From IMG/VR virus record IMGVR_UViG_3300030331_002250, positions 1 through 33,521 of that record: DNA of 33,521 nt; one strand, given 5' to 3'. Position numbers and translations under genes: made by a program. Positions 393 to 24,129 of the stretch are shown piece by piece (position 1 is the first letter of the stretch; each line of letters starts with the position of its first letter). Below the pieces are notes generated by a model that saw only the letters and a list, made by a program, of their open reading frames with translations, searched no databases and was not told the DNA's origin. The stretch comes from a virus.

Positions 393-1337
393 GTGGCTAA
401 CGTTACTTCGGGTTCTTACATTTTTGGAAAGACCCTTCCAGTTGAAGAGATTATTGAGGAGGCATACGAAAGAATTGGTATGCAGGGAGTTTCTGGCTAT
501 CAACTAAAAACAGCCAGAAGATCTTTAAATATTCTTTTTTCTGAATGGGGTAACAGAGGTCTACACTATTGGGAAGTTAAAAATCAAAGTATTAAAATGG
601 TGGATGGACAAGCAGAATATATTTTGTTTAGAGCACCAAGTGATGGCACAAGCGCAGGTATCACAACAACTTTATCTGCAGGTATAAATGCAACAGTCAC
701 AACTATTGGTTTAGCTTCTGTCGCTAATCTTGCTTCATCAGGAATTGTAAAAATAAATGATGAAGAGATAACTTATTCAGCAATATCTTCTTCAAATTTA
801 ACTGGATGTGTTAGAGGTGTTAATGGTACAACTGCAGCTACCCATACTTCTGGTGATAGTGTTTTACAATTTGCTCCTGGTGTTAATGATGTATTAGAAG
901 CTAATTATCGAAACGATCAAAATGTAGATGCGCCACTCACAAAAATTAGTAGATCGCAATATCAAGCTTTTTCAAATAAGACAGATAAAGGAACACCGAG
1001 TCAATATTTTGTACAAAGATTTATAGATAGAGTCACTATAACTTTATATTTAACTCCCGGTAGCACACAAGCTCAAACTGGATATTGTATAAATTTTTAT
1101 TACACACAAAGAATACAGGATGTTGGTGCTTATACTAACGCTACAGATGTGCCGTTTAGATTTGTCCCTTGCATGACTTCAGGCTTAGCCTATTATCTTG
1201 CAATTAAATATGCTCCACAAAGAGTGCAAGAGTTAAAACTATTGTATGAGGATGAACTTGCTAGAGCTCTTGCAGAAGACGGATCTCCAGTAAGCACATT
1301 TATTAGTCCAAAAGTATATTATCCGGAGGTAGGCTAG
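393..1337 (+). CDS. Head-to-tail connector / tail-tube-like structural protein with inserted beta domain
   Basis: A 314-residue protein starting at GTG, set by an AGGAGG site five bases upstream. Residues 16-62 carry a helical motif (EEIIEEAYERIGM, ARRSLNILFSEWGNRG) that I recall from connector or tail-tubular-A-like proteins of marine podoviruses, comparable in role to P22 gp4 or T7 gp11. Residues about 91-160 form a separate beta-rich insert ending in GCVRGVNGTTAATH. The same insert recurs in the next gene and in the tail hub. The C-terminal part (residues 225-300) resumes the host fold with a helix (YYLAIKYAPQRVQELKLLYE). It probably sits between portal and tail. The stop codon overlaps the next start by one base. 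Confidence 0.75.
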   Translation: MANVTSGSYIFGKTLPVEEIIEEAYERIGMQGVSGYQLKTARRSLNILFSEWGNRGLHYWEVKNQSIKMVDGQAEYILFRAPSDGTSAGITTTLSAGINATVTTIGLASVANLASSGIVKINDEEITYSAISSSNLTGCVRGVNGTTAATHTSGDSVLQFAPGVNDVLEANYRNDQNVDAPLTKISRSQYQAFSNKTDKGTPSQYFVQRFIDRVTITLYLTPGSTQAQTGYCINFYYTQRIQDVGAYTNATDVPFRFVPCMTSGLAYYLAIKYAPQRVQELKLLYEDELARALAEDGSPVSTFISPKVYYPEVG

Positions 1338-2167
1338 TGGGAAGTTTTGCATCTGGAAAATATGCATACATGATTTCAGACCGATCTGGTCTAAGATTTC
1401 CATATACCGAAATGGTTCAAGAATGGAATGGTTCTTGGGTTCACATATCTGAGTTTGAACCAAAACAACCACAGCTACAACCATTACCTACTAGCGCTGA
1501 CCCACAAGCTTTACAACATCCAAAACCAAGTAGAACAGCTTTTCCTACACCTATTGTTTTAAGAAATAATCCGTTTGTCATGACGGCTGCATCTAAAACT
1601 GTAACAGTTTTTACGGGTGAGAATGAGGTATTACAGGATAGTAATCCTTGGTCCACGGGAGATGCTCTAAGATTCACTGAAGTTAAAAAACCAGTTGGAG
1701 GTGTAGCTATCAACACACTTCAATTAGAGACTACCTTAAACGGTAATATTACGTCAGACGCTACAACAATAACTTTAACGGATGCAAGTGAGTTTCCAAC
1801 TAGTGGTTTTATTGTTATTAAAAAAACAAATACTGATTCTAGTTCACCAAATTTTGGAGATATTGAGGACGAAACTATTGAATATACTGGTAGATCTAGC
1901 AATAATTTAACAGGGTGTGTTAGAGGAACTTCGGCCCCTGCATATGGTAGAACTTATTCAAATACCACAGCATCTAGTCATAATTCAGGTGCAAAAGTTT
2001 TTGGATCGTATATAATAACAAAAGTTTCTGAGACAGCTACAAATGATGCAAATTCAACTCAGAGCTATAGTAATAAATTTACTATTAGTTTAGTATCGAA
2101 TGCAGCGAGCACGGAAACAGGAGGAGGATTCTTTGCATTTGCAGGACCTGTAAATCAAAGAGCATAA
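1337..2167 (+). CDS. Conserved marine-phage structural protein with inserted beta domain
   Basis: A 276-residue protein starting at GTG, which shares its G with the preceding TAG, so translation is probably coupled. The N-terminus (residues 4-45: FASGKYAYMISDRSGLRFPY, MVQEWNGSWVHISEFEPK) is a motif I recall from many uncultured marine phages, without a known function. Residues about 132-222 hold a second copy of the beta insert seen in the preceding gene (FPTSGFIVI, IEYTGRSSNNLTGCVRG, SSHNSGAKV). Its position between two connector-type genes suggests a component of the neck or tail. The exact role is unknown. Confidence 0.72.
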   Translation: MGSFASGKYAYMISDRSGLRFPYTEMVQEWNGSWVHISEFEPKQPQLQPLPTSADPQALQHPKPSRTAFPTPIVLRNNPFVMTAASKTVTVFTGENEVLQDSNPWSTGDALRFTEVKKPVGGVAINTLQLETTLNGNITSDATTITLTDASEFPTSGFIVIKKTNTDSSSPNFGDIEDETIEYTGRSSNNLTGCVRGTSAPAYGRTYSNTTASSHNSGAKVFGSYIITKVSETATNDANSTQSYSNKFTISLVSNAASTETGGGFFAFAGPVNQRA

Positions 2168-3368: not shown

Positions 3369-3384
3369 GGGGTAAATCCTTATG
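3364..3384 (+). promoter_or_regulatory. Hairpin enclosing the ribosome-binding site and start codon of the cupredoxin fibre gene
   Basis: CATAAGG (3364-3370) and CCTTATG (3378-3384) form a perfect 7-bp inverted repeat around a 7-nt loop. The right arm contains the ATG of the next gene and the left arm and loop contain its purine-rich AAGGGG. A second small dyad, TCGGA-AA-TCCGA (3385-3396), follows immediately. In mRNA this could mask the start unless ribosomes finishing the upstream gene open it, giving translational coupling. The pairing is read directly; the function is inferred. Confidence 0.5.
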
Positions 3385-4707
3385 TCGGAAATCCGAACAT
3401 TTGCAGTCACGGTTGTTGGCGGTAATCCATCAAATCACCCATATCACAACTTTGGTTCATCTAATAAGTATGCAATAAATGGTTCAACTGCGACTGCAGA
3501 TGTAACTTTATATCTTGCGGAAGGTTATACATATAAATTTGATCTCTCTGATAGCTCAGTAGATGGGCATCCATTATTATTTTCTGCAACCGCAAATGGA
3601 ACACATGGCGGAGGCACCACTTATGAGACCGGAGTTGTTTATAAACTAGATGGTGTTACAAAAACAAAAAGTGAATATGTAAATTTATCTAATTTTAATG
3701 GAGCAACTACAAGAGAAATAAGTATTACTGTTGCTTCATCTGCACCAACTCTTTATTATTATTGTAACTACCACTCTGGAATGGGATGGACTGCAAACAC
3801 CGTAGATGCAAATGCATGGGGAATGTTGCAATGGGGTCAAAATGAATGGGGCGATCAAAATTCTGTTGATCTTACATTAACAGCACCTTCTAGTTTATCA
3901 TCTGCAGTAGGTTCAGTAGATGCATTTTCTGAAACAGGTTGGGGATCTGATTCTTGGGGTGTGGAAAACTGGGGGGCTAGTGGACTTACTCTAGAATTAA
4001 CAGCACCAACTCAAATGACTGCAGAAGTGGGTGAGTTTGAAAATGCAGGAACATTAGTTGGATGGGGTAGAAACGGTTGGGGTGAAGAACCTTATGGAGA
4101 TTCATTTAATGATTTAGTTCAACCTGCTGGAGTAGGTGCATCAGTAAGTGTTGGTTCTTTAACAACAGTTCAAATGGCTGTTGGACTTACAGCTCCAAGT
4201 GAAGCAACTTCAAGTGTAGGGTCTATAACTACACAAATAACAGTTCCTATAACAGCTCCAAGTGGAGCAACAGCATCAGTTGGATCATTCGTAGAAGAAA
4301 TAGTGGTTCCTATAACAGCTCCAAGTGGAGCAACGGCTAGTGCTGGTGGTATAATTCTTGATGCAGTAGAAATTGGATTAACTGCTCCAAGTGGTTTAAC
4401 AGCTAGTGTAGGATCTATAGGAGAAACAATAGGTCAAGTTCTATCGGGTCAAGTAGCTACAAGTAGCGTGGGCTCAATTGTTCCTGAAATAGTGGTGCCA
4501 ATAAGCACAGCTGGAGTAGGAACTTCTGCTGTAGGAGCTATTTCGCCAGATCAAATTACTGTAGGATTACCTAGTTTAGAAGCAACATCTAGTGTTGGAC
4601 AATTAGGAATTAGAGCATATGTTAATGTTGATATTGACGGAAATACAAGTTATAATAATGTTGACCTTGAAGGAAATACATCATATACAGATGTTAACGC
4701 AGCGTAG
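3382..4707 (+). CDS. Repeat-containing tail/fibre protein with N-terminal cupredoxin-like domain
   Basis: A 441-residue protein. Residues 1-140 look like a cupredoxin: H63 in DGHPLLF, then C128, H131 and M134 in YYYCNYHSGMG. These match the His-Cys-His-Met ligand set of type-1 copper proteins, with the C-x2-H-x2-M spacing of amicyanin. Residues about 145-240 contain three WG-rich segments (WGxxxWGxxxWG). Residues about 269-410 form seven or so tandem repeats of 20-22 residues (core LTAPSGATASVGS), with looser copies upstream. The end has two copies of a GNTSY-containing segment. Ala/Thr/Ser/Val-rich repeats suggest an elongated fibre or spike. It lies among tail genes, so a surface location is likely. 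Whether copper is bound is inference. Confidence 0.75.
   Translation: MSEIRTFAVTVVGGNPSNHPYHNFGSSNKYAINGSTATADVTLYLAEGYTYKFDLSDSSVDGHPLLFSATANGTHGGGTTYETGVVYKLDGVTKTKSEYVNLSNFNGATTREISITVASSAPTLYYYCNYHSGMGWTANTVDANAWGMLQWGQNEWGDQNSVDLTLTAPSSLSSAVGSVDAFSETGWGSDSWGVENWGASGLTLELTAPTQMTAEVGEFENAGTLVGWGRNGWGEEPYGDSFNDLVQPAGVGASVSVGSLTTVQMAVGLTAPSEATSSVGSITTQITVPITAPSGATASVGSFVEEIVVPITAPSGATASAGGIILDAVEIGLTAPSGLTASVGSIGETIGQVLSGQVATSSVGSIVPEIVVPISTAGVGTSAVGAISPDQITVGLPSLEATSSVGQLGIRAYVNVDIDGNTSYNNVDLEGNTSYTDVNAA
4186..4611 (+). repeat. Coding tandem repeats of about 63 bp (LTAPSGATASVGS type)
   Basis: About seven head-to-tail copies of a 20-22-residue unit lie in the C-terminal half of the cupredoxin fibre protein. 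The two most similar neighbouring copies share an identical 29-bp stretch (4243-4271 and 4306-4334), offset by exactly 63 bases, or 21 codons. Earlier degenerate copies occur around residues 165-180, 207-219 and 246-262. The pattern suggests expansion by recombination or slippage in a fibre shaft. Confidence 0.8.
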
Positions 4708-5783: not shown

Positions 5784-6710
5784 ATGGCTGGAAATGGCGG
5801 AGTAATTGGACCAACACAAAGTGTTACACCTAGCACTTCTGATATTATTACAACTGTAACTTCAAGTACACCCTCAGCTGTTACAACTAATCCAGTAACT
5901 TCAAAAATAGATTTTATTGTAGTTGCAGGAGGAGCTGGCGGTTCAGGAAAAAGAGGCGGCGGCGGTGGAGCTGGTGGCTATAGATCATTTACATGTGTTT
6001 CAGTTAGCGGCGGTGCTGCTTTGGGAGCTGTCACTATTGGTGGTGGAGGTAGTGGAGTTGGAGGAAATAACGTTGGTAATTCAGGAAGCAACTCATCATT
6101 TGTTGTTTCATGCACAACATATACTTCCCATGGCGGTGGAGGTGGTGGATCACAAGAGCCCGGAGGAAGAGCTGGAAATGCCGGCGGTTCTGGTGGTGGA
6201 GGTGGAGGAAGCTCTGCTTGCGCTGCAGGAGGAGCAGGAAATACCCCTCCGGTGAGTCCTCCTCAAGGAAATCCAGGTGGAGGTGTAAGTGGTGGCGATC
6301 ACGGCGGTGGTGGTGGCGGTGGTGCTACTCAAGCAGGATTTAATTATACTAGTGCTCCAGCTGCTGGTGGAGCAGGTGTTGACATAAGTTCAACTTTTCC
6401 AGGTTCACCTATACCTGCAGTTGCAGGTGGTGGTGGCGGTGGAAATAAAGGATGTTCTGGAGCCCCTGGAGGAACAGGTGGTGGTGGAGCAGGATCTAGA
6501 TCTTATCCTGGAACTGGCGGTGGTAATGGTTCGACTAACACTGGTGGTGGAGGTGGTGGAGACGGAGATGCTAACCCAGGATCTGGCGGTAATGGTGGAT
6601 CTGGTGTTGTTGTTGTAAAACAACAGGGTCGAGCGGCGGCTGCACCAGGAATTTGGGATTTAAACACAGTATATGACTTTGTAAAAGCTGGTAATTGGAC
6701 TAACACTTAA
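5784..6710 (+). CDS. Polyglycine adhesin-like tail protein (single module)
   Basis: A 308-residue protein, extremely rich in glycine. After a Ser/Thr-rich N-terminus (residues 1-40), the strand IDFIVVAGGAGG opens a domain with many runs of four to seven glycines. It ends with VVVVKQQG and a short tail (residues 288-308, GIWDLNTVYDFVKAGNW). The arrangement matches the glycine-rich domain family used by phage adhesins such as Salmonella phage S16 gp38, where polyglycine-II helices pack in a sandwich and the loops bind the receptor. Cysteines and prolines occur in the predicted loops (CTTYTS, ACAAGG, NTPPVSPPQGNPGG). It is paralogous to the longer protein at 7260. A receptor-binding role is inferred. 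Confidence 0.78.
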   Translation: MAGNGGVIGPTQSVTPSTSDIITTVTSSTPSAVTTNPVTSKIDFIVVAGGAGGSGKRGGGGGAGGYRSFTCVSVSGGAALGAVTIGGGGSGVGGNNVGNSGSNSSFVVSCTTYTSHGGGGGGSQEPGGRAGNAGGSGGGGGGSSACAAGGAGNTPPVSPPQGNPGGGVSGGDHGGGGGGGATQAGFNYTSAPAAGGAGVDISSTFPGSPIPAVAGGGGGGNKGCSGAPGGTGGGGAGSRSYPGTGGGNGSTNTGGGGGGDGDANPGSGGNGGSGVVVVKQQGRAAAAPGIWDLNTVYDFVKAGNWTNT

Positions 6711-7259: not shown

Positions 7260-9125
7260 ATGCCTAGAAATAAATCTGGCTCAGCAAATGGTGGTGTAAT
7301 AGGAGTTTCTAATAAAACTTCTTTTGGAAAATGCACTGTTCAAACAAGAACCTCAAGTGGAGATTTTTCAAATGTTACACAGCCAGGAACTAGAGAAATA
7401 ACTGCATTATTAGTTGCAGGTGGTGGCGGAGGTCCAGGTCAAAGAGGCGGTGGTGGTGGAGCTGGCGGTGTAAGAGAATTTAATTTACCTACAACTGGTG
7501 GAGCAACAATTGCAACCACAATTGGTGGTGGTGGAGCTGCTGGACCAAGTAGTGGTGGCGGAGCTTCAGGAACAGATTCAACAATAGTTGCATGCGGAAC
7601 TACATACACTTCAGAAGGTGGTGGTAGAGGTGGTTATGAAGCAACATGCACTGCACAAGCAGGTGGCTCGGGTGGTGGTGGAGCTTCAACAGCTAACGCT
7701 TGTGGCGCATCAGGTAATACTCCCCCTCAACCAGGAAATTTTGGTAACCCAGGTGGTAAAGGTAATTGTTCATCACCCAACATCCAAGGTGGTGGCGGAG
7801 GTGGTGGTGCGGGAGGTGCCGGTGGAAATGCATCTACTACACCTGGAGGTAATGCTGGAGCCGGTGGTGTTGGAATAGCCCCAACAGCTTTTCCAGGTCA
7901 ACCCTTTTTATCAAGTTGTAAAGTCGGTGGTGGTGGCGGTGGTTCAGGTTCTTATGGAACACCCACTTACCAAAACACAAGAGGTGGTTTAGGCGGAGCC
8001 GGTGGCGGAGGTCCCGCTGGTAATGCACCTGATGGCCCTATAACAGGAGAAGCTGGAACAGCAGGCACAGCCAACACTGGTGGTGGAGGTGGTGGAGGAA
8101 GTGTATTTTATCCTGGTAGTGGACCACCAGGAAATATTAATAGTTATGCAGGAGCAGCCGGAGGATCTGGTGTTGCAGCAATTAAAGAATTAGATAAAGC
8201 AACTGGTGTATGGTCAATGCAATCACAGTTTCAAGCAGTAAAATGTGGAACTTGGCCAGCAAAAGGTTTTGATGTAAGTTTCTTAGTAATCGCCGGCGGA
8301 GGCGGAGGTGGAACTCCAGGCGGTGGAGGTGGTGCTGGAGGATATAGAAATTCTTTTGGAAGTGAAACTCCAGGTGGACCAAGTGCAAGCACAGAAGCAC
8401 AAATTTTTTTAGGTGCTGGTACTCATGATATTACAGTCGGAGCTGGTGGTGCAGCAGGTCCAGATTCTGCGCCAGGCGCAGATGGCGGTAGCGGTACTAA
8501 TTCAGTATTTTCAACTATAACTTCAACCGGTGGTGGTGGAGGTGGTGGAGGAGCCCCTCCTCGTACTGGTGTTGCTGGAGGTTCTGGTGGTGGAGCTGGT
8601 AGATGTGAAACCTCAGCACCTGCTGTTGGTGCTGGAACTGCAAATCAAGGTTTTCCAGGAGGTGTTGCTTCTGGTACACCAGAAGGCACAGCTGGAGGCG
8701 GTGGTGGTGCCGGTGCAGCTGGAGGACCGGGACCAAGTGGTTCTGGAGGAAATGGTTTAGCATCATCTATTACAGGCTCATCAGTCACTAGAGGTGGTGG
8801 AGGTGGTGGTACAAAAGACCACCCAGGAAGTCCCCCACAACCATTACCAACTCAAGGTGGTTCTGGTGGTGGAGGTAATGGATCAGCTAATGACCCTGGA
8901 GTTGCCGCACAAGCTGGAAGCGCTAACACTGGCGGTGGTGGTGGAGGTGGCGGTGCTGCCTCTGGAAGATGTGCTGGAGCTGGTGGATCAGGAATAGTTG
9001 TAGTAAGGGGTCCGAGTTCAGTTACTTTTGAGGTAACACCTGGTACTAATTCATCTACAACTCATAGTCCTACGGGAGAGAAAATAGCTACATTTACAGT
9101 AACTGGAACATTGACAGTCTCATAA
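7260..9125 (+). CDS. Polyglycine adhesin-like tail protein (double module)
   Basis: A 621-residue protein with two successive glycine-rich modules. Module 1 runs from ITALLVAGGGGG (near residue 48) to VAAIKELDKATGVWSMQSQF (near residue 310-325). Module 2 starts at VSFLVIAGGGGGG near residue 340 and ends at GIVVVRG near residue 585. The linker (GVWSMQSQFQAVKCGTWP) is homologous to the C-terminal tail of the single-module protein at 5784, so the gene looks like a fusion of two such units. Module 1 shares loop motifs with 5784 (CGTTYTSEGGG, GNTPPQPGNFGNPGG). A plain beta C-terminus follows (residues 590-621). GGAGG precedes the ATG. The likely role is receptor-binding tail adhesin. Confidence 0.78.
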   Translation: MPRNKSGSANGGVIGVSNKTSFGKCTVQTRTSSGDFSNVTQPGTREITALLVAGGGGGPGQRGGGGGAGGVREFNLPTTGGATIATTIGGGGAAGPSSGGGASGTDSTIVACGTTYTSEGGGRGGYEATCTAQAGGSGGGGASTANACGASGNTPPQPGNFGNPGGKGNCSSPNIQGGGGGGGAGGAGGNASTTPGGNAGAGGVGIAPTAFPGQPFLSSCKVGGGGGGSGSYGTPTYQNTRGGLGGAGGGGPAGNAPDGPITGEAGTAGTANTGGGGGGGSVFYPGSGPPGNINSYAGAAGGSGVAAIKELDKATGVWSMQSQFQAVKCGTWPAKGFDVSFLVIAGGGGGGTPGGGGGAGGYRNSFGSETPGGPSASTEAQIFLGAGTHDITVGAGGAAGPDSAPGADGGSGTNSVFSTITSTGGGGGGGGAPPRTGVAGGSGGGAGRCETSAPAVGAGTANQGFPGGVASGTPEGTAGGGGGAGAAGGPGPSGSGGNGLASSITGSSVTRGGGGGGTKDHPGSPPQPLPTQGGSGGGGNGSANDPGVAAQAGSANTGGGGGGGGAASGRCAGAGGSGIVVVRGPSSVTFEVTPGTNSSTTHSPTGEKIATFTVTGTLTVS

Positions 9126-9138: not shown

Positions 9139-9164
9139 AAGTTCATAAAGATATATGAACTTAA
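9137..9164. promoter_or_regulatory. Perfect 11-bp inverted repeat over -10 box, transcription start and start codon
   Basis: TTAAGTTCATA (9137-9147) and TATGAACTTAA (9154-9164) are exact reverse complements separated by AAGATA. The repeat overlaps the last bases of the -10 box, the predicted start site and the ATG (9155-9157). It could be an operator for a repressor. In read-through mRNA from the adhesin genes it could instead be a hairpin hiding the start codon; mRNA begun at the local promoter would lack most of the left arm. The symmetry is certain, the role inferred. Confidence 0.65.
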
Positions 9165-9787
9165 CAAATTACTACTGGTATTATAAATCTGCAATACCTG
9201 AAAGAATATGTGATGAAATAGTTAGATATGGTAAATCTATTTCTGATGAAATAGCCGTTACAGGTGGTTTTAATAATTCTAAAAAATTAAATAAAAAACA
9301 AATTAAAGATTTAAAACAAAAAAGAGATTCTAATATTGTGTGGATGAGTGATAGGTGGATTTACAATGAAATACAACCATATATTAATCTAGCAAATACA
9401 GAAGCAGGTTGGAATTTTACTTGGGATTTTTCTGAGGCTTGTCAATTTACAAAATATGAAAAGGGTCAATTTTATGATTGGCATTGTGATAGTTGGGAAA
9501 AACCTTACCAAGTACAAAACACACAAGATCCTTACCATGGTAAGATAAGAAAATTATCTGTAACAGCTTCTTTGTCAGATCCAAAAGACTACAAAGGTGG
9601 TGAGTTAGAATTTGATTTTAGAAACACAGATCCAGATAAAAAACGAAACATAAAAAAATGCACAGAAATATTACCTAAAGGTTCTTTAGTGGTTTTTCCA
9701 AGTTTCGTGTGGCACAGAGTATGTCCTGTTAAAAAAGGATCAAGATATAGTTTAGTTATATGGAATTTAGGATGGCCGTTTAGATGA
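9155..9787 (+). CDS. 2-oxoglutarate/Fe(II)-dependent oxygenase (PKHD/PiuC-like)
   Basis: A 210-residue protein with the expected iron and cosubstrate residues: H110 and D112 in YDWHCDSW, distal H187 in FPSFVWHRV, and R197 in GSRYSLVIW. The strand LSVTASLSDPKDYKGGELEF is typical of PKHD-type hydroxylases. Such enzymes couple decarboxylation of 2-oxoglutarate to hydroxylation of a substrate. Phage members have been linked to protein (prolyl or lysyl) or nucleic-acid targets, but the substrate cannot be told here. It is the first gene of a three-oxygenase cluster with its own promoter. It overlaps the next gene by four bases (ATGA). Conspicuously Lys/Asn-rich and AT-rich. Confidence 0.88.
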   Translation: MNLTNYYWYYKSAIPERICDEIVRYGKSISDEIAVTGGFNNSKKLNKKQIKDLKQKRDSNIVWMSDRWIYNEIQPYINLANTEAGWNFTWDFSEACQFTKYEKGQFYDWHCDSWEKPYQVQNTQDPYHGKIRKLSVTASLSDPKDYKGGELEFDFRNTDPDKKRNIKKCTEILPKGSLVVFPSFVWHRVCPVKKGSRYSLVIWNLGWPFR

Positions 9788-22246: not shown

Positions 22247-22713
22247 AAACAATAATAATTGATAATTTTTTATCAAAGTCTGAGTGTAATTTTTTAATAC
22301 AGTTTTATAAAGATAATACAGATAAAGTTGAAAAATTTAATGATACTAAAATTTTAGTCTTAAATATAGCTAGTGAGGGCTTAGATTTTTTTACACCTAA
22401 ATTAAATAATGTTGTAAAAGAATATAATTCAACAATTGACTATATTCAAATAGTAGAGTGGCCCGTTGGGTCAAGAAAAAGTATTCACGTAGATAATGTG
22501 CACGACAACACAACTATTTCATCAATAACTTACTTAAATGACAACTACGAAGGTGGTCAAACTTTTTTTGAAGAGGGGACTATTTTCAAACCAAAGTTGG
22601 GTAGAACTTTATTTTTTGATGGCAGGCATTATAGACATGGAGTTAAAACTATTGAAAAAGAAACAAGGTACGTTGTTGCTACTTGGTATAAAAAATTAGA
22701 TCCAGGCCTTTAA
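22243..22713 (+). CDS. 2-oxoglutarate/Fe(II) oxygenase, prolyl 4-hydroxylase-like
   Basis: A 156-residue protein starting at a GTG inside the endolysin stop. Catalytic residues are H82 and D84 (KSIHVDNVHD), H132 (YRHGVKTI) and R142 (TRYVVATWY). The NYEGGQTFFEEG strand is the standard E/D-GG-x-T/L-x-F element of P4H-type enzymes. It is the shortest and fourth such enzyme in the window, in yet another subfamily. The substrate is unknown. The 3' end runs 18 bases into the 3' end of the opposing helicase gene with no terminator between. Late expression with lysis genes is suggested by its position. Confidence 0.85.
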   Translation: MKTIIIDNFLSKSECNFLIQFYKDNTDKVEKFNDTKILVLNIASEGLDFFTPKLNNVVKEYNSTIDYIQIVEWPVGSRKSIHVDNVHDNTTISSITYLNDNYEGGQTFFEEGTIFKPKLGRTLFFDGRHYRHGVKTIEKETRYVVATWYKKLDPGL

Positions 22714-24129
22714 TTCTTCACCCATAATTTGAGTTGCAATATCTACTTTTTTACGTAAAGCCTGTACAATTCTATCGTCAACAGTATCTTCACATATTAT
22801 ATCAACATAAGTCATAGGTTTTTCTTGACCAATACGATCTATTCTAGCCTCTGACTGTTGTCTTTTCTCTAAATCATAACCATTAGAATAATACACCATG
22901 GTTGATGCAGCGGTGAGCGTGATGCCATATCCACCGGTTTGTGTAGTGCCCACGAAGAATCTGACCGGGGACCGGGGATCTTGGAACTTTTTAATATTTT
23001 TCTGTCTGTCTTCTTGAAGTGTTTTACCATAGTAGTCTACGTAACTATTCTCACCATACTTTTTACTAATTTCTTTTATAATTCTATTCACATCTTTTTG
23101 AAAATGTGCCCAGATAACTACCTTACCCTCTACTTCATCTAATAAATCCATTAGCTCAGGTATTCTATTTGTATCCAAATCAACCATGGTGCCATCATCC
23201 GCTACAAAGTTACCACAAGTTATTTGTTGGAGTCTCATGAGTTGAGTTAAAACTGTAGCAGTGGTCATCATTTTACCATTAAAACTAGCAAGAGCCATCT
23301 CCTTCATTTGTCGATAGGCTTTTGATTGCTCTGTAGTCAAAGATACAGTTCGTTTCATATAAGTTTTTTTAGGTAAATCTAAACAATCATCTTTTAATAC
23401 ACGATAAGAAAATGGTTTTAATTTTTCTGATAGTTCATTCAAATTTCTATAACCAACTACAATTTGAACAGACCGTCCTCCAAAGTTAGCGGTTCGCATT
23501 ACAGCATACCTGGTTCTAAAAGAATAATAAGAAGAGTGGCCCAACAGTTCTGGCATTAAAAAATCACATTGTTTATATAAATCTAGTGGTGATTTAGTTA
23601 CAGGTGATCCAGTTAGTATTCTATTATATTTAGTAGATAACCCTAATTTACATATATTTTTTGTACGTTTGGCCTCTGGATTTTTTATCGTAGTAGATTC
23701 ATCAATAGCCATCATAGACCTGTGAGAAAGTAAAAATTTTTCTGCAAAGTCCACACCTTTTTTAGTTGATAAAGCCTCTACATTCATGATTAAAATATGT
23801 AAATCTTCACCAGTTTCAAACAAAGTGTTTAATTTTTTCTGTTGTGTTTGATTTATATTAGATTGCCATAACACCGTTTTGTGTTCAATATGATCTACCA
23901 AATGCGTAGGTATCTCAGATTCATACCAGTTTTTTACGACACCTTTTGGTGCCACAATTAAAACACCATTTATCTTACCATTGTCATAAAGCATGGATAT
24001 ATTATCTATTAGCACTTTGGATTTACCGGTACCCATTTCCATAAAATATGCAAAGTATGGTTTGTTCCAGGACATCTCCAATGCTTTAAGTTGATGCTCA
24101 TATGGCGTAGTCTTAAATTTATATTTCAT
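22696..24129 (-). CDS. SNF2-type superfamily 2 helicase/ATPase
   Basis: A 477-residue protein, the only minus-strand gene. Motifs in order: Walker A EMGTGKSKV (31-39), Ia IVAPKGVVKNW (58-68), DES box AIDESTTIKN (141-150), III LTGSP (172-176), V GGYGITLTAA (399-408), and VI QSEARIDRIGQ (425-435). The DES..IKN and QxxxRxxRxGQ forms are those of SNF2 proteins. These translocate on double-stranded DNA and remodel protein-DNA complexes. In phages a role in replication, recombination or clearing host proteins is likely. It has its own leftward promoter at 24184-24157. The coding sequence contains an unusual GC-rich patch near 22961-22980. A short leader precedes the ATG, without a clear Shine-Dalgarno. 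Confidence 0.88.
   Translation of the reverse strand: MKYKFKTTPYEHQLKALEMSWNKPYFAYFMEMGTGKSKVLIDNISMLYDNGKINGVLIVAPKGVVKNWYESEIPTHLVDHIEHKTVLWQSNINQTQQKKLNTLFETGEDLHILIMNVEALSTKKGVDFAEKFLLSHRSMMAIDESTTIKNPEAKRTKNICKLGLSTKYNRILTGSPVTKSPLDLYKQCDFLMPELLGHSSYYSFRTRYAVMRTANFGGRSVQIVVGYRNLNELSEKLKPFSYRVLKDDCLDLPKKTYMKRTVSLTTEQSKAYRQMKEMALASFNGKMMTTATVLTQLMRLQQITCGNFVADDGTMVDLDTNRIPELMDLLDEVEGKVVIWAHFQKDVNRIIKEISKKYGENSYVDYYGKTLQEDRQKNIKKFQDPRSPVRFFVGTTQTGGYGITLTAASTMVYYSNGYDLEKRQQSEARIDRIGQEKPMTYVDIICEDTVDDRIVQALRKKVDIATQIMGEELKAWI

Follow-up and report, generated by a model that had tools for sequence, protein, structure and literature searches.

A cupredoxin-type domain with a putative type-1 copper site in virion proteins of marine phages

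Introduction

Amicyanin, plastocyanin, and pseudoazurin, collected in the Pfam family PF00127 (Copper-bind), hold a histidine and a C-x2-H-x2-M loop in a beta sandwich, and this loop has the amicyanin spacing. In the cupredoxin topology, one His precedes a strand, a Cys ends a later strand, and a second His and a Met lie in the next loop. Amicyanin and plastocyanin are free single-domain electron carriers, and a respiratory role belongs to rusticyanin and AcoP. The domain considered here resembles the PF00127 proteins in its His and C-x2-H-x2-M loop but forms residues 1–143 of a 441-residue phage protein.

Metal binding in phage tails is known in a different form. One report describes iron-carrying HxH motifs in tail fibres (T4 gp37, R22Y), with a proposed role in attachment (PMC11705849). 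In those proteins iron is bound on the His-x-His of a fibre trimer, whereas the phage domain has a putative four-ligand site inside one domain. Two baseplate proteins of cyanophages, gp7 and gp9 (PHROGs 708 and 677), also have a domain of this family, although as carriers they differ from the protein studied here; the gp7 and gp9 records examined are annotated by their baseplate role only and do not mention a copper site. No description of this domain was found among the open-licence PubMed Central papers searched.

Architecture of the domain-bearing protein

The window, that is, the whole analysed stretch of 33,521 bases and an entire IMG/VR virus record, carries a single copy of the domain, in the open reading frame (ORF) at 3382..4707 (plus strand, as are all features of this ORF), within a block of neck and tail genes. 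Its 441 residues comprise an N-terminal cupredoxin-type domain (residues 1–143; 3382..3810), supported by the AlphaFold2 (AF2) model, cupredoxin structural matches, and the alignment A2, followed by a WG-rich linker and tandem repeats. The initial annotation had proposed this 441-residue frame, the residues H63, C128, H131, and M134 with C-x2-H-x2-M spacing, and the fusion to WG motifs and repeats, and the sequence confirms each of these. The first ligand, H63 (3568..3570), lies in the loop preceding strand 65–68. The alignment and the AF2 model place the thiolate ligand C128 (3763..3765) at the end of strand 124–128, and the second His ligand H131 (3772..3774) and the axial Met ligand M134 (3781..3783) after it, both in the loop preceding strand 136–141. 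C128 is the sole cysteine of the whole protein. An extra conserved histidine, H75 (3604..3606), within NGTHGGG, is shared by all 90 copies of the first viral scan and by 70 of the 84 cellular ones. An insertion at about residues 87–113 (3640..3720) is missing in nearly all close viral relatives; residues 87–88 and 101–113 are gapped in 51 of 52 full rows, the remaining row being the window protein, and similarly lengthened forms of the domain occur at four loci (L084, L162, L136, and L109).

Eight WG motifs lie C-terminal to the domain. The WG-rich segment (3811..4120), modelled with low confidence, is followed by four direct repeats of the TAPSGATASVGS type (4172..4420; spacing 63–66 nt), diverged copies of which run on to the C-terminus; a low-confidence model shows strands every ~21 residues in the repeat region. 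The full-length model has a mean pLDDT of 53.9 and is poor past residue 150, and the fold of the stalk was not drawn from it, given its low confidence. Of 42 viral ORFs that begin with the domain, 41 likewise have WG motifs and repeats. The C-terminus (4640–4704) ends in two similar short segments, NTSYNNV and NTSYTDV, and the consensus of full-length relatives has a like ending, SNTSYTDV.

Shuffling the 143-residue domain 100,000 times produced the C-x2-H-x2-M motif in 0.035% of cases; a loose H...C...H...M pattern came up in 0.2%. Neither is present in the other six-frame open stretches of at least 60 aa (122 in the window). Conservation of the ligands among relatives is a stronger test of the site than shuffling.

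Predicted fold and relation to known cupredoxins

AlphaFold2 used with A2 on residues 1–146 gave an all-beta model besides short helices (pLDDT 92.2, pTM 0.87). The initial annotation had suggested predicting the structure of residues 1–140 as a check, with a fold other than a beta barrel counting against a copper site; the prediction came out as an all-beta model of cupredoxin type. Both the model and the VIA-align comparison point to the cupredoxin beta sandwich, and sequence and model agree on a His before a strand and a Cys-His-Met loop between the last two strands, so that the predicted placing of H63, C128, H131, and M134 follows the cupredoxin strand order.

The titles of the 50 best VIA-align rows all denote cupredoxin-fold proteins (nitrite reductases, laccases, other multicopper oxidases, rusticyanins, and factor VIII chains, which we take to share this fold), with middling Z values of 6.9–8.5, on a scale where Z under about 8 can reflect a common arrangement. 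The top row is the N-terminal cupredoxin domain of the Hyphomicrobium three-domain nitrite reductase (2dv6; Z 8.5, rmsd 2.8, 101 aligned, model residues 2–146), which is tethered to a catalytic nitrite reductase, whereas the window domain has no such partner. The best single-domain matches are rusticyanin of Acidithiobacillus (2cal; Z 7.8, rmsd 3.4, 108 aligned) and AcoP (7z3b), both cellular proteins with ~12–16% identity to the window domain. When the model was compared to the PDB with Foldseek, AcoP was the first match (E 1.5e-3, probability 1.00), no match fell under E 1e-3, and immunoglobulin (Ig) domains and antibodies ranked close behind. This proximity speaks for another reading, that the domain is a metal-free Ig-like or adhesin-like sandwich in which the conserved His, Cys, His, and Met contribute only to the stability of the fold. 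The 50 best VIA-align rows, being cupredoxins only, argue against it. Matches in BFVD are mostly cyanophage virion proteins where named; the “beta-sandwich” proteins of Pithovirus LCPAC302 and LCPAC304 and of Marseillevirus LCMAC201 and LCMAC202 are also found there, at E 3e-8 to 4e-4.

The relation to copper proteins at the sequence level is distant. The window protein has no Pfam match at E 0.1 and does not reach the PF00127 cut-off. Neither the window domain nor small alignments produced a significant match when searched against Pfam, NCBIfam, and PDB sequences, and Copper-bind was touched by 1 of 16 members of the A1 alignment, at E 0.11. The PDB profile ranking, with antibodies first via a shared YYC segment and plastocyanin and pseudoazurin at E 0.2–0.9, was taken as uninformative, and weak matches to Jun, CBM_4_9, ribosomal L31, and Filamin were put down to chance. 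Profile–profile comparison against 20 PF00127 domains gave a weak result (probability 14.5), in which the C, H, and M columns nevertheless match. Three relatives provide a bridge to Copper-bind, which is a further point against the Ig-like reading: the domain of a cellular A2 row (L224) scores 24.6 bits against PF00127 (cut-off 21.2), and two distant relatives also exceed it, L274 with 27.4 bits (A2 match at E 4.3e-7) and L275 with 26.7 bits (A2 match at E 2.3e-5). Since the window sequence stays under the cut-off while these three pass it, the domain is classed, by its sequence, as a distant cupredoxin and not as a PF00127 member.

Distribution and carrier proteins

Among 50,697 phage records, tblastn with residues 1–143 found matches in 169 at E 1e-3, all marine by name or source, and in 279 when the threshold was relaxed to E 10. 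By organism name, the matches comprise phages of Synechococcus, Prochlorococcus, Pelagibacter, and Methylophilales along with cyanophages, besides one uncultured, one unnamed, and one “Marine” entry (the last at E 10). The view that such a virion component would be unusual is thus mistaken insofar as the domain is common in marine phages (169 records). In IMG/VR, 207 relatives were confirmed in the first scan and at least 583 in the second. A scan of cellular genomes, one per species for 84,980 species, confirmed 109 stretches; the best 80 of these have marine-looking titles (SAR11, SAR86, SAR116, Gammaproteobacteria, Bacteroidetes, Marine Group II, and others). Some copies are surely cellular, because they lie on contigs of 0.3–1.2 Mb; other copies in the cellular collection are phage genes within single-cell assemblies. 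In proteins of marine bacteria and archaea, the domain comes after cadherin or Big_9 domains (L187, L224) or after repeats of collagen type (L222).

The viral copies occur in several kinds of virion gene, including relatives of genes that neighbour the domain-bearing ORF in the window. Among 128 distinct viral domain ORFs, 58 are relatives of the gene at 1337..2167 (plus strand) with the domain towards their C-terminus, and 42 are relatives of the C-terminal part of 3382–4707. One (L096) is a relative of the SU10-type adaptor gene (PF24175; 2171..2923, plus strand) with the domain inserted at residues 107–226, one (L151) is a relative of the gene at 393..1337 (plus strand), and 26 match none of the four window-gene queries. 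L151 and a named-phage locus, L083, judged by eye to be a fusion of the 393–1337 type, have the domain at the N-terminus; the window copy of that gene is without it, and the window gene 1337–2167 has a phrog_4406-type segment (residues 126–221) in place of the domain. In cyanophages, the copies are found in gp7, gp9, and proteins annotated as virion structural or fibre, and the window domain matches phrog_708 (E 3.5e-17) and phrog_677 (E 2.7e-9). One of the phage genes within single-cell assemblies, L170, titled Pelagibacteraceae, joins in a single ORF a T7 tail-fibre N-terminal domain (PF03906, E 1.7e-36) to a cupredoxin domain at 433–534. As the domain is carried by relatives of three neighbouring window genes and also by gp7, gp9, and T7-type fibres, these sequence contexts identify it as a mobile, interchangeable virion module. 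An origin from the photosynthetic auxiliary plastocyanin genes of cyanophages was considered but not adopted, as the carriers of the domain are structural proteins and the titles and opening abstract lines of the open-licence PubMed Central papers found held no pointer to such a structural protein.

Proteins of this kind have been seen in particles. The proteomic account of P-SS2 reports gp080 (9 peptides) and gp068 (6 peptides) in purified virions (PMC2784084), and for S-SM1 41 virion proteins are reported (PMC3037559). The domain copies of P-SS2 gp080 and gp068 are both without ligands, which fits a metal-free sandwich. The location in the virion proposed by the initial annotation therefore has indirect support, from the neck, baseplate, and fibre fusions and from the P-SS2 detection; the ligand-less state of the detected copies speaks against a copper-carrying module.

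Conservation and loss of the ligands

The first IMG/VR scan (best 80 of 207 relatives), where one of six search patterns (LYYYCNYH) overlapped the ligand site, gave 90 copies, and every one of them has the four ligands. The four are also present in 80 of 82 copies from the second (best 80 of at least 583 relatives) and in 84 of 84 cellular copies (best 80 of 109 relatives), the C, H, and M being conserved by construction in these two scans, whose patterns demanded YYCxxH[SA][GAL]M, and H63, outside every search pattern, being the unbiased column. The named-phage loci L081–L087 keep the set in 7 of 9 copies. The 109-row alignment A2, with 108 representatives at <85% identity drawn from 265 copies, leaves out L081–L087 and any row that was short, weak, or X-containing; in it H63, Y126, C128, H131, M134, and G135 do not vary. 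Ligands lacking in homologues would have spoken against a copper site, and these unvarying columns bear out their conservation.

A less biased test is a profile search of 21 whole phage records, picked from the 279 tblastn-matched records. It listed 70 places, which, after three without a locus were excluded and three fragments merged, gave 64 copies; the first-His calls for L315, L336, and L373 and a false Cys in L375 were settled by eye, and L381 is a doubtful match. The full set is kept in 39 of the 64. Two copies have partial sites, one without the Met (L372) and one with an altered C-x5-H loop (L346), six keep the first His alone, and 17 miss both the first His and the C-H-M motif, including L331 of P-SS2, which still has a Met at the axial place. 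Put differently, the whole site is present in 39 of 41 Cys-bearing copies and the C-x2-H motif in none of the 23 Cys-less ones. At least one intact copy occurs in 20 of the 21 records, P-SS2 having none. With 39 of 64 copies retaining the full set and 23 of 64 lacking C-H-M, the ligands appear to be mostly kept or lost as a unit, although many of these copies are orthologues and not independent, so that there were fewer loss events than copies. In a profile search of 22 cellular genomes, one copy (L272, genome G001) carries a Gln where the axial Met would be (C-x2-H-x2-Q), as in stellacyanin-type sites, and another (L273) has a lengthened His-to-Met loop.

These counts bear on the Ig-like reading in both directions. 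The 23 phage copies that have lost C-H-M are still recognisable as the domain, a point in its favour. However, a single Cys, two His, and a Met at cupredoxin positions are invariant in 109 diverse rows, and C-H-M is mostly retained or lost together. We consider a metal-free sandwich unlikely. Predicted fold, structural matches, conservation, and the Pfam bridge all support the initial annotation in reading a cupredoxin-type domain whose type-1 ligand set is complete and conserved.

Possible function of the domain

The explanation that we find rather probable is that the domain is a marine virion module of the cupredoxin superfamily with a type-1 site at H63, C128, H131, and M134, acting as a copper-pinned head for host contact or stabilisation. 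It is proposed that each exposed copy takes up one copper ion, copper being the expected metal for this ligand set, and that the ion would pin the His of the beta sandwich to its Cys-His-Met loop. The pinned domain may then form a rigid, resistant head that contacts the host surface, presented in the window protein at the tip of the WG/repeat stalk. The simplest assumption would be a use in adhesion or particle stability, given that the partners are of structural or surface type and no redox partner domain was seen among the fusion partners of the domain copies.

Electron transfer by the domain is possible. The complete type-1 ligand set and the presence of photosynthetic Synechococcus and Prochlorococcus among the hosts of the matching phages would suit a true blue-copper redox domain, which exchanges electrons with the host envelope, or senses it or the light-driven redox state, and gates adsorption or DNA release. 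However, the fusion partners are structural, with no redox partner domain seen, the hosts include the non-cyanobacterial Pelagibacter and Methylophilales, and several copies per genome, some of them ligand-less, better suit a structural module; such a redox function is quite improbable.

A third proposal is metal-baited attachment, in which a host protein of metal uptake or efflux recognises the copper, or another metal, that the domain carries; the report on iron HxH motifs in tail fibres puts forward such a Trojan Horse idea (PMC11705849), and the domain is present in fibres and baseplate connectors. This seems very unlikely. Type-1 sites bury the metal, which makes direct metal recognition less likely, and we know of no receptor for such attachment.

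One could speculate further, with considerable doubt, that tailed phages of the dominant marine bacteria bear arrays of copper-loaded blue-copper domains on neck, baseplate, and fibre proteins, that copper is thereby a determinant of adsorption or particle stability, and that viruses are an overlooked carrier of organically bound copper in sea water. A metal site of respiratory type in structural proteins, in phages of the most abundant marine bacteria, would tie the particles to copper chemistry. The copper content of purified particles would be a simple test of whether phages attach via bound metals. The domain assignment also puts a name to several stretches, so far uncharacterised, in the baseplate and fibre proteins of cyanophages.

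The source virus and other genes of the window

Short stretches of the window match the Pelagibacter phages HTVC033P, HTVC027P, and HTVC035P, and on the strength of these matches the source virus is likely pelagiphage-like. The ORFs 5784–6710 and 7260–9125 both match Gly_rich_2 (PF21722) and phrog_2295 and are probably related tail or fibre proteins. Three genes encode 2OG-Fe(II) oxygenases (9155–9787, PF13640; 9784–10467, PF13759; 22243–22713, PF13640). Adjoining two of them, the gene 10391–11080 matches ferrochelatase-labelled PHROGs (phrog_2954, E 2.4e-52) and is without a Pfam match; this label may be wrong. The SNF2-type helicase gene at 22696–24129 lies on the minus strand, opposite to the strand of its neighbours.
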